IMG/VR virus record: IMGVR_UViG_3300042691_018498
Coordinates: 1-32,287 of that record
DNA from: a virus
Direction: 5' to 3' (one strand)
Length of the DNA stretch: 32,287 bases
Positions 1,980 to 32,111 of the stretch are shown in pieces; the first letter of the stretch is position 1, and each line of letters opens with the position of its first letter. The translations under genes were made by a program, and so were the position numbers. The notes under the pieces are model-generated. The model saw only the letters and a list, made by a program, of their open reading frames with translations. It made no database searches and was not told where the DNA came from.

Positions 1980-3152
1980 ATGGCAGAAATTACAACAAGT
2001 CAAATTGGTAACGGTACTACAGCATATGGCAGTGACATCGTTGTCAAGGATCTGGATCTAGACGTATCCAATCGTGTCAAAGACGACACACCCGTGCTCA
2101 ACATGTGTATGAGCAAAAAACGCAAGGTCAATAGTACATTGCCTTTGTGGACAGATGACATCTATCGACTACCTGCTGCTCAAGCTGTGGACGAAGGTGC
2201 CGCAGTGTCAACATCAAACGCTGAGTCCAACTCACGTTACAACTTGGGCAACTACACACAGATTTTCCAGACAACTATTGCTGCTTCTGGAACAGCTCGT
2301 GCAGTTATGCAGGCCGGTGGTGATCCTCAGGCTTACCAGGAAGTAAAACAACTGATCGAACTCATGTTTGACGTTGAAATGCAATTGGTTCGTGCTGACC
2401 AAATTGGTACACAATACTCAGGTCAATCTGGTACTGCTATTACCAACCCAACAACTGCTCAAACAGGCGGTCGTCGTATGGGCTCATTGAATAGTTTCGC
2501 AGGAACACATTCTTTCAACCCAACCAATGCTGGCACAGCCAACATCACAACCAACACCAACAACGCAAGTTCTGACTCCAGCACTGCCAACGTTGGTAAC
2601 CTGAACATCAGCGCCAATGGTACTGAGTTCTACACTGGTACATTTACTAACCAATTGTTCCAGCCTGTGTTGTACAAGCAATTGGTTACAACTGCTGAAC
2701 AGCGTTACAATGCCAAGATCCGCACAATGGTTGTTCCAACCAGCCTGCGTACCATGATCTCTGACAACATTGTGAACTCTAACACCAGCATCAACCGTCG
2801 TAACGTTGAGCGTGGTGACACAATCCAAACTTATGAAGGCGACTTCAACTACACATACGAAATCTATGATTCTTGGATCATGGACTCAGCAGGTGTAAGC
2901 GATCAGATCTACTTCATGAACGAAGATGTTCTACAGTGGGGTAGCTTGCGTGATCTTGGACCCAACAACGAAGTGTTCTCAAATGCAGATGCTTCATTGG
3001 ATCAGTTCTTGATGGAAGGCACATTGATTGTGCGTAACCCAGCAGGCGTAGGCGTATTACACAACATCAGTGCAACTGGTGCTGCCGTATCTGGCCCACG
3101 CACAAGCACATTCGTACAGCGTGTGAACTTTGGAGCAGGCAGCACTTACTGA
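1980..3152 (+). CDS. Major capsid protein, DUF5309/SU10-type HK97 fold
   Basis: The product has 390 residues. The N-terminal part has the pattern of the DUF5309 (SU10-like) capsid family: a disordered start, then DTPVLNMCMSKKRKVNSTLP and LWTDDIYRLPAAQAVDEGA. The C-terminal half carries the family-like block in which a peripheral strand ends in TYEGDFNYTYEIYDSWIM, followed by MNEDVLQWGSLRDLGPN and ending in LIVRNPAGVGVLHNIS. Residues 150-215 are rich in N, T and S and may be a surface insertion. A strong ribosome site, AAGGAGA, precedes the ATG by 5 bases, as expected for the most abundant virion protein. A clean intrinsic terminator follows 27 bp after the stop. Family assignment is from pattern memory, not a profile search. 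Confidence 0.85.
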   Translation: MAEITTSQIGNGTTAYGSDIVVKDLDLDVSNRVKDDTPVLNMCMSKKRKVNSTLPLWTDDIYRLPAAQAVDEGAAVSTSNAESNSRYNLGNYTQIFQTTIAASGTARAVMQAGGDPQAYQEVKQLIELMFDVEMQLVRADQIGTQYSGQSGTAITNPTTAQTGGRRMGSLNSFAGTHSFNPTNAGTANITTNTNNASSDSSTANVGNLNISANGTEFYTGTFTNQLFQPVLYKQLVTTAEQRYNAKIRTMVVPTSLRTMISDNIVNSNTSINRRNVERGDTIQTYEGDFNYTYEIYDSWIMDSAGVSDQIYFMNEDVLQWGSLRDLGPNNEVFSNADASLDQFLMEGTLIVRNPAGVGVLHNISATGAAVSGPRTSTFVQRVNFGAGSTY

Positions 3153-4835: not shown

Positions 4836-7457
4836 ATGTCAACAACTTCAAGTAAAAATTTTACCACACTGTATTCTGGTGCTGGATCAGTAGTACCACA
4901 AGGAGCCTATGGCAATGCCAATGTGGTAAGTCTACTGGCAGCAGGCACAGATGGTGGCAACACAGTAAGCAATATCATTGCCACAGGCAATGTCACAGCA
5001 AGTTATTTTATTGGTAATGGTTCGCAGCTAACAGGAGTGGTTGGCACATACTCAAACGCACAAGTCAGTGCGTTTTTGGCATCTGGAACCAACACAGGCA
5101 ACATCATAACTGCTGGCAATATTAGTGGTGCATATGTTCTAGGCAACGGCTCACAACTTACTGGACTGCCTGCCACATACTCAAATGCACAAGTCAGTGC
5201 GTACCTGGCATCAGGCACCAACACAGCCAACATTGTTACTCAGGCCAATGTGGTAGGTGCATTTTTAACCACATCAGGAGCCAACGGCAATATTCAAGGT
5301 GCCAACTACATCAGCGGTAATGCGTTTATTGGCAACACAGTTAGTGTTGCAGGCAACGTCACAGCAAGTTATTATATTGGTAACGGCAGCTTGTTAACTG
5401 GCATTGCCAGCAGCACGTACGGCAATGCCAATGTGGCCAACTTCCTGGGCAACGGTTTTGGTAGCAACACCATAACCACCACTGGCAACATCACAGCAGG
5501 CAACATCAACACTGCCAACTATGTGGCATTTGGAACCACAGGAGCACAAACCACTGCTGCCACAGGCCAAATGTTCTGGGACGCAACAGAGCAAACTGTT
5601 AGCCTGGGAATGAACAATGGTGTCACACAGCAGATTGGTTTAGAAAACTACATTCTTGTCAAAGCATCAGCCACAATCTCTAATGGTCAAGTGGTGATGT
5701 TTACAGGAGCCGCAGGAGACAATGTTCAGGCAGCACCAGCAGATACCACAAGTGTGGGATTCAGACCCGAATATATCATTGGTGTGGCCACTCAAGACAT
5801 TGCCAACAATGCGTTTGGTTATATCACCACATTTGGCAAAGTGCGAGGTCTCAATACCTTGGCTTATACCGTGGGCGACATCCTGTGGGTCAGCAACTCC
5901 ACACCAGGGGCTCTCACAGCCACACAACCTACAGATCCCAACTATCAGATCGAAGTTGCCGCAGTGACCAAGGTGTCAGGTGGTGATGGACAGATTCTTG
6001 TGCGTGTGACACCATTTAATGGTCTTGGCAGCCTGACAGATGTGACCATTACAACTCCTTCAACAGGACAATCTCTGGTGTATTCTGGCAATGTCTGGGT
6101 GAATGCCAACATATCTGCTGCCAACATCACAGCGGCTGGTAGCAACACACAGATCCAGTTTAATGATTTGGGTGTGCTGGGTGCCAATGCCAACTTGGCA
6201 TACGACAAAGCCACAAACACATTCAGCACTGGCATAATCACAGCCACAGGCAACATCAACGGTGCCAATCTTGTGGCGTCAGCCAACCTCACAAGCACAC
6301 AACAAACCATTGTGGGCACTGGCAACATCACAGGCGGCACCGGCAATATTATACTGTCTGGTAAAAACATTGCCACAGACATGGCATTCAATCCAGATGG
6401 TGGCAATGCTACCAATGCTGCCTTGTCACGCATCAACGTAGGCACAGGTTGGCTTGGCAACATCACACACAGCACCAACCAGAATCGCTTGGTGGTGCAG
6501 GACACATTTAATCGCACCAACACAGGCACAGCAGTGCAGTTGTTTGCGTCAGACCCAATTGTTAATCTAACAGGCAATGTCACAACTAATTCGTTCCGTG
6601 TTCAGGCAATAGGTGGACGAGTGCGAATTGGTGGTGGATCAGCAGCCAATACTATTCAGTTAACTGGTGGTGCTGGCGTAATTGGTTCTATAGCCGCACT
6701 ACAACCCAACATTGATGTGGGCAATGTATCACCATACAACCTGGGCAACACCACTGTGAGTCACGCCACACTTAATGGTGGATTTATCACAATGTATCAA
6801 GGCAGTTTGTTAGGCAATGCTTATGGCATGATACCTGGTGCACTTGCTACTTCTACTGGCAATGCACTTGCCGCAGGCAACATTACCAACTACATAGGCT
6901 TTGCCAGCCAATTGGGTGCAGCACCTTTTACAACAGGCAACGTGTATGCTTTCTATCACGCTAATGCTGCAGGTAGTGCTCAAGCATTAGCCACAGGCAT
7001 AGGCACAGCCAACGCGGTTCGAACAGCCGCCAATTACTATGCGTTTAGAAATGATGATCTTGTGGCACAAGTGCAATTGGGCAGTTTGCGCAACTATCAC
7101 GAATATCAGTATTCAACTGCCACATCTGGCACAGTGAACATTGACAAAAACAATGCGCAGATTCAATACATAGCACCCACTGCCAATGTCACCATAGGCG
7201 ACTTCCAGAATTTTGTGACCACAGCCAGCAACAGTGTTAGCAATATCAATCAGACTGACACAGTTACCTTGATCATCAAGCAAGGTGCTACACCTTATTC
7301 TGTGTTCATGCCCACAGGCAATGCCGCAATCAAGTATGCATCAGGCAACAGCACAGTGGGTGTGACTGCCAACGCTGTGACAATGATATCTGTATCAGCA
7401 GCCAATGTGGCAGGTGCTGCCTTGTACATGGTCACTGTATCACCGGAGTTTACATAA
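4836..7457 (+). CDS. Large repeat-containing tail fibre protein
   Basis: The product has 873 residues and is very rich in N, T, G and A. Modules of the type SYFIGNGSQLTGV recur at residues 57, 99 and 179, each followed by TYSNAQVSA or TYGNANVA and GN(I/V)T tracts. This pattern suits trimeric beta-helical shafts. Residues 270-395 form a different domain (YILVKASATISNGQVVMFTG, then FGYITTFGKVRGLN) that I have seen in many phage fibre proteins. The last 350 residues are again beta-rich and probably form the distal part. The start is supported by AAGGA 10 bases upstream. The stop overlaps the next start (TAATG). The role is host attachment. The receptor cannot be told from sequence. Confidence 0.8.
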   Translation: MSTTSSKNFTTLYSGAGSVVPQGAYGNANVVSLLAAGTDGGNTVSNIIATGNVTASYFIGNGSQLTGVVGTYSNAQVSAFLASGTNTGNIITAGNISGAYVLGNGSQLTGLPATYSNAQVSAYLASGTNTANIVTQANVVGAFLTTSGANGNIQGANYISGNAFIGNTVSVAGNVTASYYIGNGSLLTGIASSTYGNANVANFLGNGFGSNTITTTGNITAGNINTANYVAFGTTGAQTTAATGQMFWDATEQTVSLGMNNGVTQQIGLENYILVKASATISNGQVVMFTGAAGDNVQAAPADTTSVGFRPEYIIGVATQDIANNAFGYITTFGKVRGLNTLAYTVGDILWVSNSTPGALTATQPTDPNYQIEVAAVTKVSGGDGQILVRVTPFNGLGSLTDVTITTPSTGQSLVYSGNVWVNANISAANITAAGSNTQIQFNDLGVLGANANLAYDKATNTFSTGIITATGNINGANLVASANLTSTQQTIVGTGNITGGTGNIILSGKNIATDMAFNPDGGNATNAALSRINVGTGWLGNITHSTNQNRLVVQDTFNRTNTGTAVQLFASDPIVNLTGNVTTNSFRVQAIGGRVRIGGGSAANTIQLTGGAGVIGSIAALQPNIDVGNVSPYNLGNTTVSHATLNGGFITMYQGSLLGNAYGMIPGALATSTGNALAAGNITNYIGFASQLGAAPFTTGNVYAFYHANAAGSAQALATGIGTANAVRTAANYYAFRNDDLVAQVQLGSLRNYHEYQYSTATSGTVNIDKNNAQIQYIAPTANVTIGDFQNFVTTASNSVSNINQTDTVTLIIKQGATPYSVFMPTGNAAIKYASGNSTVGVTANAVTMISVSAANVAGAALYMVTVSPEFT

Positions 7458-8233
7458 TGTTAGGAGCCGCAAGAACTGCCTGGGATGCCCGTGCATGGGC
7501 TCCTACTGGCACACCATTTGATCCACAAGCACGTAGAACCACTGCGGCTGCCACACTCAGCACATTCACATTCTCTGGACTTAATGGTGCCAATTACTCC
7601 ACGTCAAAAGCACAGTTTGGTGCTGGCAGCCTGGACATCACAGGATCAACTCAGATTATACAAAAGACCAGTTGGTCAGGACCATTCCCATCAGGTACAG
7701 GTGATTTCTGCATTGAAGGTTGGGTATGGGTTCCGTCAGGTCGTGGTTCAGCCTCAACAGGCGATCCTATTTGTAATAATCAAACAGGTGGCTTGTGTAT
7801 TCGATTTGGACAAGGTTACAACACAGGCGGATTCAACTATCTAAGTTTGTTTGCACGTGGTCAAGCAGACTTGGATTACGCTGCCATTACTTGGCCCACT
7901 GACACTTGGGTGCATTGGGCAGTGCAACGCAAATCAGCCACAATGAGTTTTAGAGCCAATGGCAACAAACTCACCATATCTGGTGGGTCAGGCGGCGGAG
8001 CCCGAAACTTTGCTGCCGCAAGCAATGCCACACTGTCAATAGGATCATACAACAATGGTGGCTCAACAGACGAAACAATGAAGTCCTGGTTGGATGAAGT
8101 TTGTGTCAGCAACTCATGGCGTTATGATGATGCCTATTCAACCTACACCATTCCCACAGCAGCATTTAATGTGGACACTATTACTGATATGCTGATCCAC
8201 TTTGATAGTTCATTAACAACGGCGGCTTCATAA
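7457..8233 (+). CDS. LamG/concanavalin-like jelly-roll tail protein
   Basis: The product has 258 residues. After about 35 residues the sequence follows the Laminin_G_3/concanavalin A-like pattern. The FCIEGWVWVPSGRG strand comes first. Next come a glycine-rich strand pair and WPTDTWVHWAVQRKSATMSF. The closing motif is MKSWLDEVCVSNSWRYD. Such domains bind carbohydrate or act as fibre tips. The start codon overlaps the stop of the large fibre gene, and the stop overlaps the next ATG, so the three are translationally coupled. That favours a tip or chaperone-like partner of the upstream fibre (inference). No signal peptide is present. Confidence 0.75.
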   Translation: MLGAARTAWDARAWAPTGTPFDPQARRTTAAATLSTFTFSGLNGANYSTSKAQFGAGSLDITGSTQIIQKTSWSGPFPSGTGDFCIEGWVWVPSGRGSASTGDPICNNQTGGLCIRFGQGYNTGGFNYLSLFARGQADLDYAAITWPTDTWVHWAVQRKSATMSFRANGNKLTISGGSGGGARNFAAASNATLSIGSYNNGGSTDETMKSWLDEVCVSNSWRYDDAYSTYTIPTAAFNVDTITDMLIHFDSSLTTAAS

Positions 8234-8436
8234 TGTATAGAGTAGAACTACCAGAACCAGGACATTATCACAATCTTGATCTAACAGAACAAGAATTTGT
8301 CAACATCACAACAGGTGTGGACACCACACTTGGTATAGCTGTATGGAATCCTGAAACAGATGCCTATGTAAGCAACATCACAGCAGATGAGGCCGTGGTT
8401 TTGTATCCTGTGTGCTGGCGTGAGATATATCCTTAA
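8233..8436 (+). CDS. Small fibre-operon protein of unknown function
   Basis: The product has 67 residues, is acidic and is predicted to be beta-rich. It reads LDLTEQEFVNITTGVDTTLG then NITADEAVVLYPVCWREIYP. The ATG overlaps the preceding stop (TAATG), giving translational coupling with the LamG-like gene. I recognise no family. Small ORFs in this position are often fibre-assembly or fibre-associated proteins, but nothing in the sequence proves that. Confidence 0.65.
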   Translation: MYRVELPEPGHYHNLDLTEQEFVNITTGVDTTLGIAVWNPETDAYVSNITADEAVVLYPVCWREIYP

Positions 8437-8445
8437 GGACAACAC

Positions 8446-8583
8446 ATGATTGAAATTGAAGGCGGAATCACAATTGGACCTGGTATATTGATTGGACCAA
8501 AGAACGCAATACCCACGGATTTTATCACTGAAGATTCTAATTTTCTCATCAGTGAAGACGACAAAAACTTTATTGAGGAATAA
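8446..8583 (+). CDS. Tiny ORF (45 residues) with GPGILIGP hexapeptide-like turn
   Basis: This is a short gene between two fibre-operon genes. The ATG at 8446 is preceded by AAGGA six bases upstream, and the stop is only 3 bp before the next gene's ATG. The product begins MIEIEGGITIGPGILIGPKN and ends with a very acidic tail (SEDDKNFIEE). The alternating G-I/P-G pattern recalls beta-helix turns. The good ribosome site and tight packing make it likely to be translated. Function is unknown. A small fibre-associated or trimerising peptide is one possibility. Confidence 0.6.
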   Translation: MIEIEGGITIGPGILIGPKNAIPTDFITEDSNFLISEDDKNFIEE

Positions 8584-8586
8584 GTT

Positions 8587-9918
8587 ATGAGCAACGTTAA
8601 ATTTACTCAACTACCTGACCTAGCACAAGGTAGTATCACAGGCACAACAATTGTGCCTGTTGTGGAAGGTGGAGTCAACTACACAGTGACCACTGCCAAT
8701 TTACAAAGCTATGTAAATTCAACCACAGGCAACATCACAGGCGGCAACATACTAACTGGTGGTGTTGTGTCAGCAACAGGCAATGTCACAGGCAGCAACT
8801 TGAACACATCTGGCATTGTGAGTGCCACAGGCAATATCACAGGTTCGTATTTTCTGGGCAACGGATCACAACTGTCTGGCTTGCCTGCTACCTATTCTGA
8901 TTCAAATGTTGCAACATTCTTGTCAGCATTTGGTGCCAACACCATAAGTTCAACTGGCAACATTACCACCACAGCCAACATTGCAGGCAGTTATGTCCTG
9001 GGCAATGGATCACAGCTCACAGGATTGCCAGCCAACTATGGCAATGCCAATGTGACGTCGCTTATGGCTGCGTTTGGATCAAATGTCATAAGTTCAACAG
9101 GCAACATTACCACAACTGCTAACATTGCAGGTGGATATGTTTTAGGCAATGGAAGTTTGTTGACAGGTCTTGGCGCAACTTACAGCAACTCCAATGTGAC
9201 CGCATTGTTGGCAGCATTTGGATCAAACACAATATCCAGCACAGGCAATATCACTACCACAGCCAATGTGGCAGGTGGATTCTTTCTGGGCAATGGATCA
9301 CAGCTCACTGGCATCACTGCTACCAGCAGTTATGGCAACGCCAATGTTGCCACACTGTTGGCAGGATTTGGATCCAACAGCATATCAACCACAGGCAATG
9401 TCACAGCCACCAACTTTGTTGGTAATGGTGCAGCACTAACAGGCATAGTGGCCAGTGCTGGAACTTTTATTGCCAATGGCGGAACCTATGCCAATGCCGT
9501 GACTGCCAATGGTCTGTTGAAGTTGGTTGCTGCCAATACTGCCAGCGGGTTTGATGGTGCTCAGATTACAGTTCAGGACAATGGCAATGGTGGCAATATT
9601 GTTATCAATGCAGCTTTGGGTACAGGCGGCGGATATATTATACTGTCAGGCACTAGTAGATTTAATGCATTGACATCAACAACAGGTGCAATTGTTATGT
9701 CAGGCGGTCAAATTGACGCAAATACTGTGGTAACGTCTACTGTTACTGCCAGCAGTTTATTAAGAGTTCCCACATTTACTATTGCAGCCAAACCAGCATC
9801 TGGTCAAGCAGGTGCAATCATCAGCATTACCAATTCACCCACACAAGCAGGTAAAATGGCCTACTGGAGCACCACATCCAGTTCGTGGAGATACATTGCA
9901 GATGACACAGCAGTTTAA
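8587..9918 (+). CDS. Second repeat-containing tail fibre protein
   Basis: The product has 443 residues. The N-terminal 45 residues (FTQLPDLAQGSITGTTIVPV) resemble the attachment end of phage fibres. Residues 87-278 hold four 48-residue modules built on GNGSQLTGL plus AFGSNTISSTGNITTTAN, with a degenerate fifth. Residues 290-443 are a beta-rich end. The modules match those in the 873-residue fibre, so both probably form similar trimeric shafts and may exchange segments by recombination. The ribosome site is weak (GAGGAAT overlapping the stop of the tiny ORF). The likely role is attachment, with this protein either a second fibre or a proximal partner. Confidence 0.75.
   Translation: MSNVKFTQLPDLAQGSITGTTIVPVVEGGVNYTVTTANLQSYVNSTTGNITGGNILTGGVVSATGNVTGSNLNTSGIVSATGNITGSYFLGNGSQLSGLPATYSDSNVATFLSAFGANTISSTGNITTTANIAGSYVLGNGSQLTGLPANYGNANVTSLMAAFGSNVISSTGNITTTANIAGGYVLGNGSLLTGLGATYSNSNVTALLAAFGSNTISSTGNITTTANVAGGFFLGNGSQLTGITATSSYGNANVATLLAGFGSNSISTTGNVTATNFVGNGAALTGIVASAGTFIANGGTYANAVTANGLLKLVAANTASGFDGAQITVQDNGNGGNIVINAALGTGGGYIILSGTSRFNALTSTTGAIVMSGGQIDANTVVTSTVTASSLLRVPTFTIAAKPASGQAGAIISITNSPTQAGKMAYWSTTSSSWRYIADDTAV
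8845..9420 (+). repeat. Four tandem 144-bp coding repeats in the second fibre gene
   Basis: Four in-frame copies of about 144 bp begin near 8845, 8989, 9133 and 9277. Each encodes a GNGSQLTGL-type motif followed by (Y/S)GNANVTSLMAAFGSN and ISSTGNITTTAN. Copies differ by many substitutions, so they are old rather than freshly slipped. Related modules at 4836-5500 encode the shaft of the larger fibre. Confidence 0.8.
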
Positions 9919-18864: not shown

Positions 18865-21147
18865 ATGGCCATGTACAACTACACACCTAACACCAATTAT
18901 TACGGTGCTGACGAAGAAGAAGAACGCCGACGTCGAGAACAAGAACAACTGGCTGCTGATGATGCTGCTCGTTTGGCAAAAATACAAACACCTGCACCAC
19001 CCATGGTTGAACAAGCAGGTGTTCCTGTTGCTGGCGCTGTTGCACCTGAGCCAGAACCTATAAAACAAACAATCACATACGATCCTGTGTCAGGTGAGCA
19101 ACGCATGAAGATTGAAGGCAATGCACGTGACCTGTCAGCAGAAAATCCTCTGACACCCACACTCACCATGCCTGGCGCAGTAAGTCCAGAACAGATGGCA
19201 CAGCAACAAGCTGCTGCTGAACAACAACAACGCGAAGCACAACAGGCACAACAACAACAAGTTGTTGAACAACAACAACCTGTAATTCCGCCTGAACAAG
19301 CACAACCTGCGGCCGCGCCAGAGATGCCTCAACTGCCGCAGCCAGGTCCAGGAGTGCAAGTTGCTGGTCCAGCACAAATGCCAACAGCACCAGCACAACC
19401 ATACACAGGTCCTGGTCAAGGAGAAGAAGCGCAAACAGTAGGACAAGCACAATTTGCGCCACAACAACCACAACAACCTGAACAACCACCTGCTACAGAT
19501 CCTATAGCAATGTTTACTTCTGCTGTGGGCGACACTGCAAAACTGTTGCAAATTTACAACGACAAAAATCAACCACCAGAATTGAGACGAATGGCTGGTC
19601 GTGAAGCCAGCCGTCAGTTGAAAGCAGAAACTGAACAAGTTGAGGCTGAAAACAAAGTCAAAACCATGACGCCCAATGAAGTGCAGCGAGAACTACGCAA
19701 GTCAGATGAAGAAGGCTCCTGGACCAAACGTGTGATATTTGGCCTGCTGAACATGCAAGGTGCTATGGCAGCAGAAGATGCCAAACTGGGCATTGGCGCA
19801 AAGTTTCAATCTATCAATCTAAATGGTGTGCCTGTTGAAATCAAAATGCGGGCTGATGGCAAGGCCATGGAAGGCTACAATGCTCAAACACTTGAACCTC
19901 TGAGTAAGAAAGAACTTGTGGCAGCAGCGGCTCAAATGACCACACTCAAAGGTGCTGAACAAGGCGCACAAGTGTACATGGATCCAAGCGGCACAGTCAA
20001 AGGCACATATGTGCTAGAACGCAGACCAGGACAAACTCCTGTTTACAAAGAAGTTGGCAGTGGCAGAATTGCATCTGGTACAGAAAGTGCAGCACTACGA
20101 CAAACAGGTGTGCAAGGCACCTTGGCTGATCAAAGTTCAAGACAACTACAAGAACTACAAAACAAATTGGCATTTGCTGGTCCTACTGCATCAGCCACTG
20201 AAATTGAAAAGATCTTTGGTGAATCAGAAGCCAGATTTGGTCCGTTGCCAGAAGACTACAAAGCACGAATTCGTGGCGGTGCTCCTAGACCAAACGTGGC
20301 TGCGGCACCAACAGGTGCTGCTCAAGCACCAGCAGCCGCACCTGGTGCACCTGCAGGTCAAGCACAAGCACCAGCACAAGCACAAACACAACGAGCACCT
20401 GCTCCTGTCACTGCTCAGGCAGCCCCAGGTGGTGGTGTGCGACTGAGTGTGGTGCCAGGTGGCACTCCAGGAGCAAGAGAAAGCGCAATGCGTACCAACG
20501 AAGCTGCGGCCAAAGAACGCATACAAACTGGTGAATCTATACCAAGAGAGTTTATCAAACTCAACACCAAAGCAGCGTCTGACGCAGCCGCTGCTTCTGC
20601 CAGCGCACCACAGTTGTTGAGCACTATTGATAGAATTAGTAGAACACTGGAACAGCGTCCAGACTTTGCTAACTCGTTACAATCACCAGCATTTACTGCG
20701 TTTGTGGTAGCACAAGACTCAGAAAAACAAAAACGTCTAGAAGACCTAAGCAATGCTGCACGTATTAGACCTCAAGACAAAACAGAGTTTCAGAGCCTGG
20801 TCAATGATCTACGCAAGCTAGAAGTGGCTGGCATTACACAAAGTGGACTCACAGCAGCTCAGTTGAACACTGAACGTGAAAGCCAACGAGTTATTGATGC
20901 TTTGGCAGCAAACTTGCGTAACACTCCACAAGCTGCTAGAGCACAGGTCGAAGTTGCTCGAGCACAGATTCTGTATAACCAACGCTTTGCTCGTTATTTG
21001 GCAAATGCTGATCCCACACAGAATCCTGCCTTGCTTCGCAGCCGATTTGATGACACCATTGGTGACAAGATTTATCAAGACTTGGTGCCTCGACTGGAAG
21101 CTATCAAACGCGGCGGCGGTGTAGTGGACTTTAGGAGTAACCAATAA
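18865..21147 (+). CDS. Large putative internal virion/ejection protein (760 residues)
   Basis: The first 20 residues are aromatic and asparagine-rich (MAMYNYTPNTNYYGADEEEE). Residues about 20-210 are low-complexity Q, P, A and E. Residues 210-460 look globular and helical (MFTSAVGDTAKLLQIYNDKN, then WTKRVIFGLLNMQGAMAAED, a possible short membrane-active helix). Residues 460-525 are again A/P/Q-rich. The last 230 residues are helical (PQLLSTIDRISRTLEQRP onward). This is the build of ejectosome proteins. The ribosome site AAGGA lies 6-7 bases upstream. The stop overlaps the next ATG (TAATG). No lysozyme, transglycosylase or protease motif was found by eye, so the biochemical activity is unknown. 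Confidence 0.6.
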   Translation: MAMYNYTPNTNYYGADEEEERRRREQEQLAADDAARLAKIQTPAPPMVEQAGVPVAGAVAPEPEPIKQTITYDPVSGEQRMKIEGNARDLSAENPLTPTLTMPGAVSPEQMAQQQAAAEQQQREAQQAQQQQVVEQQQPVIPPEQAQPAAAPEMPQLPQPGPGVQVAGPAQMPTAPAQPYTGPGQGEEAQTVGQAQFAPQQPQQPEQPPATDPIAMFTSAVGDTAKLLQIYNDKNQPPELRRMAGREASRQLKAETEQVEAENKVKTMTPNEVQRELRKSDEEGSWTKRVIFGLLNMQGAMAAEDAKLGIGAKFQSINLNGVPVEIKMRADGKAMEGYNAQTLEPLSKKELVAAAAQMTTLKGAEQGAQVYMDPSGTVKGTYVLERRPGQTPVYKEVGSGRIASGTESAALRQTGVQGTLADQSSRQLQELQNKLAFAGPTASATEIEKIFGESEARFGPLPEDYKARIRGGAPRPNVAAAPTGAAQAPAAAPGAPAGQAQAPAQAQTQRAPAPVTAQAAPGGGVRLSVVPGGTPGARESAMRTNEAAAKERIQTGESIPREFIKLNTKAASDAAAASASAPQLLSTIDRISRTLEQRPDFANSLQSPAFTAFVVAQDSEKQKRLEDLSNAARIRPQDKTEFQSLVNDLRKLEVAGITQSGLTAAQLNTERESQRVIDALAANLRNTPQAARAQVEVARAQILYNQRFARYLANADPTQNPALLRSRFDDTIGDKIYQDLVPRLEAIKRGGGVVDFRSNQ

Positions 21148-21935
21148 TGGCCAAAGAAATTATACTGGAAGACGGTCGCACAGCACTGTTTGATGATGAT
21201 GCCTCTGAACAAGAAATTGAACAGAAACTACAATCACAAAACCTCAAGCGTCAAACAGCACCTGCACAATCACAACAGTATGCCAGTGTACCACAACTGG
21301 GTCCTGTGGTGCCTGGCATGGCAAGTGCAGCCAATAGCGCACTATTTGGTGTGCCTGAAATAGCAGCCCGAGCCATGGGCGGCGGCAACTACATTGATGC
21401 TGTGCGTGAACAATATCCCATGGCCACCACAGCAGGTGATGTGGCTGGACTTATAAATCCTTACAGACTGGCTGCCAAAGTTGGACAAGCCGGGGTTAAA
21501 CGTTTGATGACTTCAGGTCCAAATAAAATGGATACTTTTAATGCCCTAAGCAGGTCAGACGACGCCAACCGTGCAGCGGCACAAGCCGCACAAGCAGTGC
21601 CTGGATTTGGTCAAACAGTTAAAAATATAGCACAACGTACAGCAGGCGTAGGCACAGGTATTATGGGTGCTCAAGCAGGTGCTGCTGCCTTGGGTGGTGC
21701 TAGATCTGAAAACTACGGAGCCGGAGCACAGCAAGGCGCACAGACATTCCGCACTGCGGCCATCAACGCACCTGGTATATCCTTGGTTCCTGGTGCACAA
21801 GGCACAATTGGTGCTGTCACAGGCGTTGTGCCCGGTGTGTTGGGTGCTGGCTCAGCAATGGCTAATTATTTGAGTATTGATGAAATGATCAGACAAGAAG
21901 CTGCCAAACGAGTTTTACAAAGACCACAACAATGA
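21147..21935 (+). CDS. Putative internal virion/ejection protein (262 residues)
   Basis: The N-terminal 35 residues (MAKEIILEDGRTALFDDDAS) form a short beta-alpha start of a type I have seen in phage virion proteins with an exposed 'LEDG' head. The rest is alanine/glycine-rich with hydrophobic stretches at about 50-75 and 155-245 (GVGTGIMGAQAGAAALGGAR, TGVVPGVLGAGSAMANYLSI) that could be membrane-active. AGGAGT lies 8 bases before the ATG. It overlaps the genes on both sides (TAATG and ATGA), so it is translated as part of the ejection-protein block. The function is assigned only by composition and operon context. Confidence 0.6.
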   Translation: MAKEIILEDGRTALFDDDASEQEIEQKLQSQNLKRQTAPAQSQQYASVPQLGPVVPGMASAANSALFGVPEIAARAMGGGNYIDAVREQYPMATTAGDVAGLINPYRLAAKVGQAGVKRLMTSGPNKMDTFNALSRSDDANRAAAQAAQAVPGFGQTVKNIAQRTAGVGTGIMGAQAGAAALGGARSENYGAGAQQGAQTFRTAAINAPGISLVPGAQGTIGAVTGVVPGVLGAGSAMANYLSIDEMIRQEAAKRVLQRPQQ

Positions 21936-22363
21936 CCACCAAAGAACAACTAAACCAAGTATTCTGTGACAATTTTGTCACATACTATCGCAGCCACACA
22001 GCACATGTGAACATCATGGGTCGCAACTTTCGATCAGATCACAAACTGCTACAGGGTGTGTATGAACGACGTCAAGCACAGATTGATGTGCTTGCAGAAC
22101 TCCTGCGTACTCTAAATGCGTTTATGCCGGTGAGCATTACAGAAGTGTTGACCTGCAGCGAGATATCAGATTCTGACATAGAAGGAGACGCAGATGAATT
22201 ACTCAACTCGGTTCGTGATGATTTGGAACAGCTCAAAGGCTGCTATGAAGAACTCATGGCAGTGGCTGACGAAGAAGGTCACGCGGAAATAAGCAACTAC
22301 GCACAAGATCAAATTTTGGACATTGCCAAGTCAATCTGGATGCTGAATTCTACCTTGGACTGA
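21932..22363 (+). CDS. Dps-like mini-ferritin
   Basis: The product has 143 residues and is helical. The second helix region reads YRSHTAHVNIMGRNFRSDHK and is followed by ERRQAQIDVLAELLRTLN. This matches the Dps signature H-(W)-N-x-x-G-x-x-F-x-x-x-H...D-x-x-x-E. H25, H37, D52 and E56 occupy the same spacing (12, 15, 4) as the inter-subunit ferroxidase ligands of Dps proteins. The C-terminal part (EISNYAQDQILDIAKSIWML) matches the last helix with its usual W-M-L. Dps family members are commonly about 150-180 residues, so this is slightly short, and it lacks a lysine-rich tail. The ATGA overlap couples it to the ejection genes. Iron oxidation or DNA protection is inferred, not shown. Confidence 0.75.
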   Translation: MTTKEQLNQVFCDNFVTYYRSHTAHVNIMGRNFRSDHKLLQGVYERRQAQIDVLAELLRTLNAFMPVSITEVLTCSEISDSDIEGDADELLNSVRDDLEQLKGCYEELMAVADEEGHAEISNYAQDQILDIAKSIWMLNSTLD

Positions 22364-22460: not shown

Positions 22461-22490
22461 AATAAAACCACAAGATCTGTGGTTGTTTTA
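22461..22490. terminator. Bidirectional intrinsic terminator between convergent gene blocks
   Basis: The stem AACCACA (22466-22472) pairs with TGTGGTT (22478-22484), with loop AGATC. It is flanked by A-rich AAAATA on the left and TGTTTTATTT on the right, so both strands end in a U-rich tract after the stem. It lies between the plus-strand ejection operon and the minus-strand island and overlaps the stop codon of the minus-strand GNAT-like gene. Confidence 0.75.
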
Positions 22491-22970
22491 TTTCAGGCGT
22501 CGATATGCGTATGAGCCACGCACATCATATCCGCGACCAGCGTGTATACGTAAAAACGCTGCCTGATCTCCACGCACAGTGCTGGAGCATATGACAGGCA
22601 CCCCACACAACGCAGCCCAGGTTTCCCAAAGATCAATCATGTCTTGAATCAGTCGGATTCTTGTTCTTGTACTCAGTGCCAAATCCACGTGTGCCATTTT
22701 GATCACTACCATCTCATCATCCGACCAAGGTGCTCGTTGATTGCGTTCTGCCCAGGTGTAGGCAACCAGTTGATCTTGCTCTGTTCGTGCAACACTGATC
22801 AATTGTGACAGGGGTGAATAGAACTGTTGTACCACAGCCACAGTGATGTTGCGGCTGTAGGCAATGGGGTCTGGTGTGAAGATTTGGTCAATCTCTGACT
22901 CAAAGTGATCCTGTGCCATTCGCACAATGTCTGGCACATCACCGCCGTGTGCTGGTCTCCAATTGATCAC
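22488..22970 (-). CDS. GNAT-like acetyltransferase-fold protein
   Basis: The product has 160 residues. The N-terminus INWRPAHGGDVPDIVRMAQD matches the first strand and helix of GNAT proteins. The middle DQLVAYTWAERNQRAPWSDD suits strands 2-3. The C-terminal half, MIDLWETWAALCGVPVICSS then FLRIHAGRGYDVRGSYAYRR, matches the usual last helix and the 'GF...y.r' strand, here GYDVRGSYAYRR. The acetyl-CoA pyrophosphate loop (Q/RxxGxG/A) is not clear, so catalysis is uncertain. Phages do encode GNAT-like proteins of unknown target. It is the last gene of the minus-strand island and overlaps the upstream gene by ATGA. Confidence 0.6.
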   Translation of the reverse strand: MINWRPAHGGDVPDIVRMAQDHFESEIDQIFTPDPIAYSRNITVAVVQQFYSPLSQLISVARTEQDQLVAYTWAERNQRAPWSDDEMVVIKMAHVDLALSTRTRIRLIQDMIDLWETWAALCGVPVICSSTVRGDQAAFLRIHAGRGYDVRGSYAYRRLK

Positions 22971-25294: not shown

Positions 25295-26689
25295 ATGAAC
25301 ATAGTAATGACACCCATCAACGACATCAAACCCTACGCCAAAAACCCGCGTAAGAATGATCGTGCTGTGGCCACAGTGGCCAACTCAATCGAGCAGTATG
25401 GATTCCAACAGCCCATCGTGGTGGACCGAGACCATGTGATAGTGGTAGGACACACGCGATATCGTGCGGCACACAAACTAAACCTCACCCAAGTGCCAGT
25501 GATTGTGGCGGACACACTTACAGACGAACAGGTGCGAGCCTACAGACTTATGGACAACCGTAGCAACGAAAACGCACAGTGGGACAACAATCTGCTGATG
25601 GAAGAACTTCAGGAAATGCTGGACGGTATAACCATTCAAGATGTGAGTTATCAGTCGGGATTCTCAGAAAGCGAACTCAACCGCCTGTTCAGCAGTGATC
25701 ACGACTTACTGGATCAGGTGCGCGATGTACTCACGCCCGAAACCTATAGTGAGTCAGGCGATGTATGGGTCCTGGGTCGCCATCGCATAGTGAACGGCGA
25801 CTCAACCGCCGCGGACACAGTGGCAGCACTGTTAGGCACAGAAAAGATTGATCTAGTGTGGGAAGACGCTCCTTACGGTGTGGCATACCAGACGCCCAAT
25901 GGTATCAATCACTCCAAAGAGTATAGAGAACTCACCAATCATCTTATCGCCAACGACTCATTGAGTGGCGAAAAACTAGACGCATTCCTGGACGCACATC
26001 TCCGAGCAGTGATGCCTTACGTAAAACCTGGAGCCAGCCTGTACTGGTGTCATGACATTAGATACAATCATCAGTTCAAACAAGTGCTGGAAAAGAACAA
26101 CGTACACATAGCAGACACTCTGATCTGGCGCAAGAACAACGCCAGCACCTGGCTTACAGACTACGCCAAATACTACGAGCCCATTATCTACGGCTGGAAG
26201 TCAGGAGCAGAACACTCCTGGTACGGCCACAAGATGCATCCCAACGCATTTGACCTAGACGATCTAGAAAAGAAAACACCCGCACAATTGATCAAGATTA
26301 TTCGAGACTTTGACACCAACTATCAAGAGTTCAAAAAAGAGCCACGCAAAACAGCCAGGCTACATCCCACAGTCAAACCAGTGAAACTGATAGAGTATCA
26401 CATGATCAACAGCAGTCAGGTTAATGACATAGTGTACGATGGCTTCTCAGGATCAGGATCAACCTTGATGGCAGCAGAGATATCAGGTCGCTGTGCTCGC
26501 TGTGTGGAACTGGAGCCCAAGTTTGTGGACGTGACCATACGACGCTGGCAAGAGCTAACAGGCCTACAGGCAGTGAGAGAGAGTGATGGTGTGCTGTGGG
26601 ATGACTTGGCCAATCCAGAACCTTTCGACCGTGATCAGGCCCTACACAACAACATGACAGAACTATTTGATCTGCCCACAGGAACCTAA
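25295..26689 (+). CDS. ParB-like nuclease/DNA methyltransferase fusion (beta-class)
   Basis: The product has 464 residues. Residues 1-90 are a ParB/Srx-type domain (DIKPYAKNPRKND, IVVDRDHVIVVGHTRYRAAH). Residues 155-460 form an N6-adenine/N4-cytosine methyltransferase in beta order. Motif IV comes first (IDLVWEDAPYG, residues 186-195) and motif I is near the end (YDGFSGSGSTLMAAE, 381-395), after HPTVKP. The motif IV tetrapeptide is DAPY rather than the usual DPPY. ParB-methyltransferase fusions are frequent in phages and usually have no partner nuclease, acting in self-protection or packaging. The target sequence cannot be read from the protein. AGGAAAAG precedes the start. The stop abuts the next ATG. 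Confidence 0.85.
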   Translation: MNIVMTPINDIKPYAKNPRKNDRAVATVANSIEQYGFQQPIVVDRDHVIVVGHTRYRAAHKLNLTQVPVIVADTLTDEQVRAYRLMDNRSNENAQWDNNLLMEELQEMLDGITIQDVSYQSGFSESELNRLFSSDHDLLDQVRDVLTPETYSESGDVWVLGRHRIVNGDSTAADTVAALLGTEKIDLVWEDAPYGVAYQTPNGINHSKEYRELTNHLIANDSLSGEKLDAFLDAHLRAVMPYVKPGASLYWCHDIRYNHQFKQVLEKNNVHIADTLIWRKNNASTWLTDYAKYYEPIIYGWKSGAEHSWYGHKMHPNAFDLDDLEKKTPAQLIKIIRDFDTNYQEFKKEPRKTARLHPTVKPVKLIEYHMINSSQVNDIVYDGFSGSGSTLMAAEISGRCARCVELEPKFVDVTIRRWQELTGLQAVRESDGVLWDDLANPEPFDRDQALHNNMTELFDLPTGT

Positions 26690-29404: not shown

Positions 29405-29717
29405 TCCCACACCACAAGTTCGTGATGGTATGATCCACGCTGCCCAACAGGCCCGAGCAGTGGATGATACCAAGATCCTACAAAAGGTCAATGCTGTGAA
29501 TCGTGAAGCGTTTACACAACGCTTTCCCAATCAGATTGAACATCACATGCGACTGATCTCTGAACGGCTGCAAGGCTGTCTAACCAAGCCTCATGGCTTT
29601 GTGCTGGATCACCCTGACTCCTGGCCAGCCTCAGCAGATGAAATCTTTGCTCTAAGCCACGCACTCAAAAATCTAAATGAAGTGCGTAGAGACTGGCGCT
29701 TACCAGATCCTGAATAA
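29397..29717 (+). CDS. Uncharacterised helical phage protein (106 residues)
   Basis: The product is soluble and mostly helical (GMIHAAQQARAVDDTKILQK, NQIEHHMRLISERLQGCLTK, EIFALSHALKNLNEVRRDWR). The start overlaps the previous gene by 8 bp and the stop overlaps the methyltransferase ATG (TAATG), so it is translationally coupled on both sides. No family was recognised. Confidence 0.65.
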   Translation: MSNPTPQVRDGMIHAAQQARAVDDTKILQKVNAVNREAFTQRFPNQIEHHMRLISERLQGCLTKPHGFVLDHPDSWPASADEIFALSHALKNLNEVRRDWRLPDPE

Positions 29718-30508
29718 TGTTTCCATACATAGGCGGCAAGGCACATCACATACGGCACCTGGATCGCATATTTCCACTTGACCCCGTACACACATTTGTA
29801 GATGTGTTTGGTGGAGCAGGCTGGGTCACTGTGCGTAGCCAGGCCAGTCAACGAGCACACCATCGTGTTTACAATGACGCCAATCCACACCTGGCCAACA
29901 TCTTCCAATGGTTCAGCACTGACCCTGGGGCTGTGCTGGCACAACTTGAAGCCTGGCCACAGCAAGATGCCCAGTTGTATCGACAGTTCCAGCAAGACAT
30001 CTTTGGTAGCAATCCAGAACCATTGAGTCTAATCACAGCAGCCAAATACCTTTACATTGAGGTTCAGAGTTTCTCTGGCAACACTCTGGGACTGAACTCA
30101 AGTGTGTATTTTGACAGCATCCATACCATCAATCCTCTAATCAAGAAACTACAACACGCACCAACCTTGCGCAGTCTTGGCGGCATTGATCGTGTAACAA
30201 ACCTGGATTGCTGTGAACTCATTGATCAACTGGACTCACCTGACACCTTTTTCTATTGTGATCCACCTTACTATTCCAAAGAGCACTACTACACACACGC
30301 CTTTGGACGTGACGACCACAAGGCCCTGGCCACAAAGTTAAAGCAGTGCCAGGGTCGTTGGGCATTGAGTTATTATGAATTTGATGAACTCAATCAATGG
30401 TTCCCGCGTGATCAATACACCTGGCACACCTACTCAATCAGCAAACAAAGTTCAAGCCGACGCAACAAAACACGCGGGCAGGAAGTGGTCATAACCAACT
30501 ATGCTTGA
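29717..30508 (+). CDS. D12-class (Dam-like) DNA adenine methyltransferase
   Basis: The product has 263 residues, close to Dam at about 270-280. The motif order is alpha-class: PYIGGK (3-8), a SAM-binding FVDVFGGAGWV (27-37), YNDANPHLANIF (52-63) and the catalytic DPPYYS (182-187, after FFYC). The C-terminus (SSRRNKTRGQEVVITNY) matches the usual basic ending with EVVITN. D12 enzymes methylate adenine N6, often in GATC. The target here is not shown. No restriction partner is adjacent, so it is probably an orphan protecting phage DNA. It overlaps the terminase gene by 8 bp. Confidence 0.9.
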   Translation: MFPYIGGKAHHIRHLDRIFPLDPVHTFVDVFGGAGWVTVRSQASQRAHHRVYNDANPHLANIFQWFSTDPGAVLAQLEAWPQQDAQLYRQFQQDIFGSNPEPLSLITAAKYLYIEVQSFSGNTLGLNSSVYFDSIHTINPLIKKLQHAPTLRSLGGIDRVTNLDCCELIDQLDSPDTFFYCDPPYYSKEHYYTHAFGRDDHKALATKLKQCQGRWALSYYEFDELNQWFPRDQYTWHTYSISKQSSSRRNKTRGQEVVITNYA

Positions 30509-32111
30509 TCCTGTGATCCTCATGCGTAGAGCCCTGCGCTGGGTGCTGGACCAACACGACATAGCACCAGAAGCCTGGCACACCATGCCCACCAACACAC
30601 AGCAGCACCTGCAAGAACTGGTGATTGCTGTGGCTGATGACATGCGCTACAATGGTCTCAAATACTTTAGACCTTTTGAACACCAAAAGAAGTTCTTTAC
30701 CACCACTACAGATCGTAGAGGCATTCTTGCTGCCAACAGGATTGGTAAAACAGTGAGCACCTGTTATGAAACAGCCTACCATCTCACAGGCTTGTATCCA
30801 GACTGGTGGCAGGGACACAGATTCGACAAGAGTATTACAGTTATGGTGGCAGGTGAAGGCTGGAGTCAGGTTGCGCTGGTGCTACAACAAGAGTTGCTGG
30901 GCACACCAGATGTAAAACTGCGTGATCAACTGGGCACAGGAGCCATACCCCGAGACTGCATTGTGGTTGATACCATGCGCGGTGATGGAGCCAATTGTAT
31001 TGGTGCTGAGATACGCCATGTGACAGGATCAAAAAGCTACCTGTTGTTTGCCAACTACACACAAGAGGTGCGACAACTACAGGGTTTCAAACTGAACCTT
31101 GCGGTGTTTGATGAACAGCCACCAGATGACTTCTTCTCTGAGATAGTCACACGTACCGCCACCACACAGGGCATGGTCATGTGTTCATTCACACCACTCA
31201 AGGGTCTCAATGGCTTGGTATCAAAGTTCTGGAATAGAGAAGAAGGCTATGACTATGTGCGTGTGGCCTGGGATGATGTGCCTGAATATGATCCCTGGGG
31301 CGAACCATTCCTACTACAAAGCACAAGAGATCAACTGGAACGCGACTACCTACCACACGAGCGTGAAGCACGTATGCAGGGCAAGCCCATTCAGGGCAAA
31401 GGTGCTGTGTTCCAGGTACGTGAATGGCCCACCTACCGGCCGTCAGAGATTGACTTCCGCAGCCTGCCCAACATACATAGAATCATTGCCTTGGACTTAG
31501 GCTTGGTCAACGACAAGACAGTTATCACACTCATGTACTGGGATCCTTATGAACGCACAGCATATCTACACAAACAGATCTTGGTGCAGGGCATTGAAGA
31601 GGCTGTGCCCACACAGTATATCAACCATTTACTTCGTCCTGAAGTGTTTGGCACTCCTATTGTTCTACCTGCTGACGCATCAACTGCTGGCAGATACACC
31701 ATGAGTGCCAGTTCCATAAGAGAACTATTCGAATCATACGAACTCAATGTGTATAGCAAGGCCATTATGAATCCGCCTGACTCAGAAGGCCGTGTGACCA
31801 ATCACAAAAGCTATGGCATAAACCAAATGCGTCAGATGCTGGAAGTGGGCAGCCTAATGGTCAACGAGAACTGTGTGGACTTCCTGCGTGAAGCACAGAA
31901 CTACTATGTGGACAGCCAAGGCAGGTTCTCTGACCCAGATGACTGTATTGATTCAGCAAGATATGCTATACTGGGATGTCTCAATGGGTTGGCAGAACCC
32001 TGGGACAATCGCTCACCCCAACAACGCATGGCAGCACAGCGAGATCGTTATGTGCGTAGAGATGAATCTACCAAGCCAGCGTGGAAACGCTCTTACTCAC
32101 CGGATGCTTAA
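30501..32111 (+). CDS. terL: Terminase large subunit (packaging ATPase/nuclease)
   Basis: The product has 536 residues, a typical length. The ATPase domain has a Walker A-like AANRIGKT (77-84) and Walker B LAVFDE (200-205), followed by the coupling SFTPLKG (229-235). The RNase H-like nuclease has ALDLG (D332), LPADAS (D392) and DPDDCIDSARY (D481/D484), placing the expected metal ligands in order. It pumps DNA into the prohead through the portal and cuts concatemers. The start overlaps the methyltransferase stop by 8 bp. An internal ATG at 30525 is less likely because the coupling favours 30501. Confidence 0.9.
   Translation: MLDPVILMRRALRWVLDQHDIAPEAWHTMPTNTQQHLQELVIAVADDMRYNGLKYFRPFEHQKKFFTTTTDRRGILAANRIGKTVSTCYETAYHLTGLYPDWWQGHRFDKSITVMVAGEGWSQVALVLQQELLGTPDVKLRDQLGTGAIPRDCIVVDTMRGDGANCIGAEIRHVTGSKSYLLFANYTQEVRQLQGFKLNLAVFDEQPPDDFFSEIVTRTATTQGMVMCSFTPLKGLNGLVSKFWNREEGYDYVRVAWDDVPEYDPWGEPFLLQSTRDQLERDYLPHEREARMQGKPIQGKGAVFQVREWPTYRPSEIDFRSLPNIHRIIALDLGLVNDKTVITLMYWDPYERTAYLHKQILVQGIEEAVPTQYINHLLRPEVFGTPIVLPADASTAGRYTMSASSIRELFESYELNVYSKAIMNPPDSEGRVTNHKSYGINQMRQMLEVGSLMVNENCVDFLREAQNYYVDSQGRFSDPDDCIDSARYAILGCLNGLAEPWDNRSPQQRMAAQRDRYVRRDESTKPAWKRSYSPDA

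Follow-up and report, generated by a model that had tools for sequence, protein, structure and literature searches.

The window, a 32,287-nucleotide stretch that makes up a 32.3-kb record of an uncultured freshwater/marine bacterial virus, encodes a true Dps/mini-ferritin of 143 amino acids. Its gene (dps) stands at one place, the end of a late morphogenesis operon, in every informative contig of the virus clade. We consider it probable that the protein is a late-expressed ferroxidase, which clears Fe(II) and peroxide while virions are being assembled. Dps genes have been described in Lactobacillus phages (PMC6669764) and in gut 'Gratiaviridae', 'Flandersviridae' and others (PMC8008677), so the mere presence of a Dps in a phage is no novelty, and the role proposed in those papers is the same as the one preferred here. 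The new observation is the clade-wide, fixed place of dps as the last gene of the virion operon.

Identity, predicted fold and ferroxidase residues

The dps gene (21932..22363, plus strand) starts with ATG. Its product matches the Pfam Ferritin family (PF00210) at E=9.7e-15, with 55.2 bits against a gathering cut-off of 24.5, and PHROG 3636 (phrog_3636, labelled 'DNA binding protein') at E=1.6e-27. When solved Dps proteins were searched with phmmer, the matches covered the open reading frame end to end, with CAIP as the best (1.3e-15) and HP-NAP at 2.7e-14. The protein scores far under the curated cut-offs of the NCBIfam Dps equivalogs and is thus a remote Dps, outside the named NCBIfam subfamilies. 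Three trivial explanations were rejected: a chance open reading frame or chance His/Asp/Glu spacing by the profile and Dps matches and by conservation in relatives, a truncated gene or pseudogene by the open reading frame in relatives, and host contamination by the occurrence of dps in 25 viral contigs sharing the capsid gene.

The AlphaFold2 monomer model, made with an alignment of 29 relatives, has a pLDDT of 94.4 and a pTM of 0.89. Helices are predicted at residues 3-28, 36-60, 69-75, 87-115 and 118-142, forming a four-helix bundle with the short extra helix in the BC loop (69-75) that is typical of Dps. The best Foldseek matches in the PDB are all Dps proteins (HP-NAP, TM 0.91). VIA-align gave Z values of 20-21 with an rmsd of about 1.5 Å over 142 residues for Dpr, Listeria Dps and MrgA, with HP-NAP in the same Z range, and 19.6 for Agrobacterium Dps; these are far higher than the Z of 13-14 that unrelated helical bundles can reach. 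The initial annotation had read the product as a Dps-like mini-ferritin from the DNA letters, and this reading agrees with the family profiles, the solved Dps matches and the predicted fold: the ferritin match lies above its cut-off, and the monomer model is a four-helix bundle and not another fold.

Among known proteins, the best sequence matches are Helicobacter cinaedi CAIP (5lbh), HP-NAP (3t9j/1ji4) and TpF1 (2fjc), short Dps proteins without long tails (E 1e-15 to 1e-13, about 28-32% identity over the full length). They share the length and the ligand positions of the phage protein, whereas they are bacterial genes without phage context, and CAIP and HP-NAP have HWN where the phage Dps has H(V/I/L)N. 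The dodecameric Dps proteins of Listeria innocua (1qgh) and Agrobacterium tumefaciens (1o9r) have similar folds (Z 19.6-20.9) but only 22% and 17% identity, respectively, and the fifth ligand of the Listeria protein, D47, is absent in the phage Dps. The closest viral structure match is an uncultured Caudovirales Dps (A0A6J7WGJ1; 42% identity, TM 0.96). Lactobacillus phages Iacchus, Bromius and Semele, Synechococcus phage S-EIV1, Aeromonas LAh phages and Kuravirus SU10 (gp67) also encode Dps proteins, with the same four ligands where aligned, although their identity to the window Dps is about 30% or less.

The spacing of H25, H37, D52 and E56 (12, 15 and 4) is that of the aligned CAIP and HP-NAP, and the E. 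coli Dps counterparts are H51, H63, D78 and E82. Across 49 distinct relatives, with identities down to 37%, all four residues fall within the 19 invariant positions (hypergeometric P=2e-4, the chance of the quartet falling in the invariant set under random placement). A wider alignment of ten phage Dps proteins, unrelated phages included (S-EIV1, Lactobacillus, Aeromonas and SU10 phages; 13-39% identity to its first row), leaves only Met1, one Phe and the four ligands as invariant columns. The initial annotation had placed these residues at the exact spacing of Dps ligands, which the CAIP and HP-NAP alignment and the invariance confirm. Its phrase 'all four ferroxidase residues' is right for the quartet but leaves out the usual fifth ligand, the position of which is occupied by Q41 here.

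The fifth ligand is D67 in E. coli and D47 in Listeria, and is common but not universal. Position 41 is Q, G, E, K or A across the 49 relatives. Since CAIP has Q and HP-NAP has E at this position, the absence of the fifth ligand is not decisive for Dps membership, and because CAIP is itself a solved Dps with Q there, the loss need not abolish activity. The ferroxidase Trp (E. coli W52) is not kept either, being replaced by V, I, L or A in the clade. With the D67 and W52 equivalents missing clade-wide, the kinetics could differ from those of E. coli Dps. Position 126, whose counterpart in the HP-NAP alignment is an acidic residue close to the three-fold pore, is acidic (D/E) in 48 of the 49 relatives.

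Gene position and distribution in the clade

The start codon of dps overlaps the upstream stop codon TGA (21933-21935) in an ATGA motif (21932..21935, plus strand), indicating translational coupling. The upstream gene (21147..21935, plus strand) encodes a fast-evolving, Ala/Gly-rich late protein of 262 amino acids with no family match. In nearly all relatives with flanking sequence, the stop of the upstream gene lies between 18 bp before and 4 bp inside dps. As the last rightward gene, dps is followed by an inverted repeat (22462..22495) that is terminator-like on both strands by consensus match, with a z of only -1.7, and then by leftward genes. The convergent open reading frame of 160 amino acids (22488..22970, minus strand) is next after dps in relatives and has a homologue elsewhere in the genome of the sister-clade phage MW202484. 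A leftward frame usually follows dps in the relatives, and a rightward one is found in exceptions such as loci L123, L019 and L002.

The SU10-type major capsid protein (1980..3152, plus strand) is the marker of the virus clade, the terminase large subunit is encoded at 30501..32111 (plus strand), and a fragment that matches the MW202484 portal lies at the left end of the window. Position and the SU10-type capsid gene give good support to a late morphogenesis operon overall. The late virion operon, the ATGA coupling and the terminal place of dps had all been proposed from the window letters, and the flanks of the relatives show the same arrangement. The 1452-, 238-, 760- and 262-aa genes upstream of dps gave no informative Pfam or PHROG match, and none matched an internal virion protein of SU10, so that the 'ejection operon' of the initial annotation is a putative label only. 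A search with the 262-aa protein returned two loci only. The BLAST grouping of these upstream proteins is a weak link, because it partly reflects Ala/Gly/Pro-rich composition.

We collected 31 contigs of at least 20 kb with a related capsid gene. Dps is encoded in 25 of them, including all 17 of at least 30 kb. Five of the other six end short of the expected site and the sixth (G018) begins about where dps would end; as none of the six reaches the site, dps is present in 25 of 25 informative contigs, and in all of these at one place. The sister clade, represented by MW202484, has a capsid with 61% identity to that of the window clade and shares homologous late genes with the window, among them those for capsid, portal and terminase. 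The late operon of MW202484 terminates in other genes, and a ferritin domain was found in none of 29 near-complete sister-clade contigs of 38-45 kb. Thus, dps was either gained and kept in the window clade or lost by the sister clade, and from the comparison of these two clades a gain is the simpler reading.

Three genomes (G015, G013 and G009, dps loci L143-L145) have capsids 89-92% identical to that of the window, with Dps proteins only 37-38% identical. The divergent Dps occupies the same slot and keeps the quartet, indicating that the Dps function and not one particular sequence is maintained. This divergence would be explained if a foreign Dps had replaced the original one, or if a single branch had changed fast. 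Neither the Dps alignment nor the capsid protein revealed bacterial or provirus relatives in the genome contigs. At two loci (L034:865-1419 and L035:376-930), the encoded Dps is extended at its N-terminus by an acidic stretch of about 40 residues.

Possible role of the phage Dps

Phage Dps genes are usually regarded as optional auxiliary genes. Here, every informative clade member has dps in a single position that closes the morphogenesis operon, and the sister clade lacks it; this pattern points to selection for iron and ROS control at assembly. We hypothesize that the subunits would assemble into a dodecamer, as in other Dps proteins, with twelve ferroxidase sites at the two-fold interfaces, each likely built from H25 and H37 of one subunit and D52 and E56 of its neighbour. 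Fe(II) would be oxidized at these sites with H2O2 as the preferred oxidant, and the ferric oxide would be stored. Because dps closes the late operon and is translationally coupled, it is likely expressed during genome replication and packaging. The lowered free Fe(II) and peroxide could then reduce Fenton damage to the phage DNA in the dying host. This action probably proceeds without DNA coating, by analogy with the tail-less Dps proteins of Listeria and Agrobacterium; the latter is described in its structure-entry title as protecting DNA without binding it. The 29 sister-clade genomes, which manage without Dps, count against this explanation, and a Dps of the host's own could make the phage protein redundant.

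An alternative is that the protein mainly binds and condenses DNA in the manner of E. coli Dps, reshaping host or phage DNA. The PHROG 3636 label and most annotations do read 'DNA binding protein'. However, the window Dps has a pI of about 4.4, the 49 relatives range from 4.1 to 4.8 with a net charge of -12 or lower in all, and Lys/Arg-rich tails are found at neither the N- nor the C-terminus, since the model has helix A starting at residue 3 and helix D running to 142. E. coli-style coating is unlikely for an acidic protein without tails, and sequence and model alike disfavour protection through direct DNA coating. What is conserved is the ferroxidase quartet and not a basic patch, and we regard a mainly DNA-binding role as very unlikely. 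Slightly less credible still is an iron carrier or store, not a protectant, that would supply the infected cell or make iron-rich virions in the manner of the 'Ferrojan horse'. Dps proteins store iron and the quartet is conserved, but the Ferrojan idea is about iron carried in phage tails; no feature of the dps locus connects Dps with the tail, and none of the genes near dps was recognised as serving iron uptake or release. The clade-wide loss of the D67 and W52 equivalents would fit a Dps fold that has lost catalysis and now serves as a structural protein. We give this reading the least credence, given that the four primary ligands are invariant in the 49 relatives (P about 2e-4) and in the ten remote phage Dps proteins.

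The Dps might instead be a virion component, with dodecamers or subunits in the head or portal region that shield the genome after packaging or accompany the DNA into the next host. The gene is the terminal one of the virion operon, coupled to the late Ala/Gly-rich protein and kept at one place clade-wide. Several uncultured phage proteins with the database name 'Prohead protease' also contain a Dps-fold domain: the BFVD entries A0A6J7WPK9, A0A6J7XDU5 and A0A6J7WIS1, which come from uncultured Caudovirales and are 333-763 aa long, match this fold. They may be fusions of Dps and protease, and such fusions would place a Dps inside the prohead. Yet the 143-aa protein has no conserved tail or targeting extension, and the assembled dodecamer, at about 9 nm, would not fit through the portal channel. 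In the isolate phages examined, moreover, dps lies in replication or metabolism regions or by other auxiliary genes, unlike the window gene at the virion operon end. We consider a virion location possible but unlikely; the literature searched held no paper on Dps in phage virions. A more specific proposal, to which we assign a somewhat lower probability, is that dps is a fixed virion-assembly gene whose ferroxidase cage is made with the virion and packed in or on it, where it would protect the encapsidated DNA or, when the next host is entered, detoxify iron and peroxide.

Other genes of the window and its relatives

The window also encodes a DNA methylase with a fused ParB-N domain (25295-26689) and a D12-class (Dam-type) adenine methyltransferase (29717-30508). 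No DNA polymerase or helicase was recognised among the window genes scanned, and searches for tRNAs and Rfam families gave no match in the window. In the relative L002, the gene before dps encodes a late-operon protein of 805 aa, open at its N-terminal end, that stops 8 bp before dps at 2428. A DPAAGDG stretch in this protein resembles an adenine-methyltransferase domain. At 4836-9918 of the window, two proteins of 873 and 443 aa with weak matches to chlorovirus glycoprotein repeats flank a concanavalin A-like lectin-type protein, and this stretch, which is variable among relatives, is likely the tail fibre or receptor-binding region.
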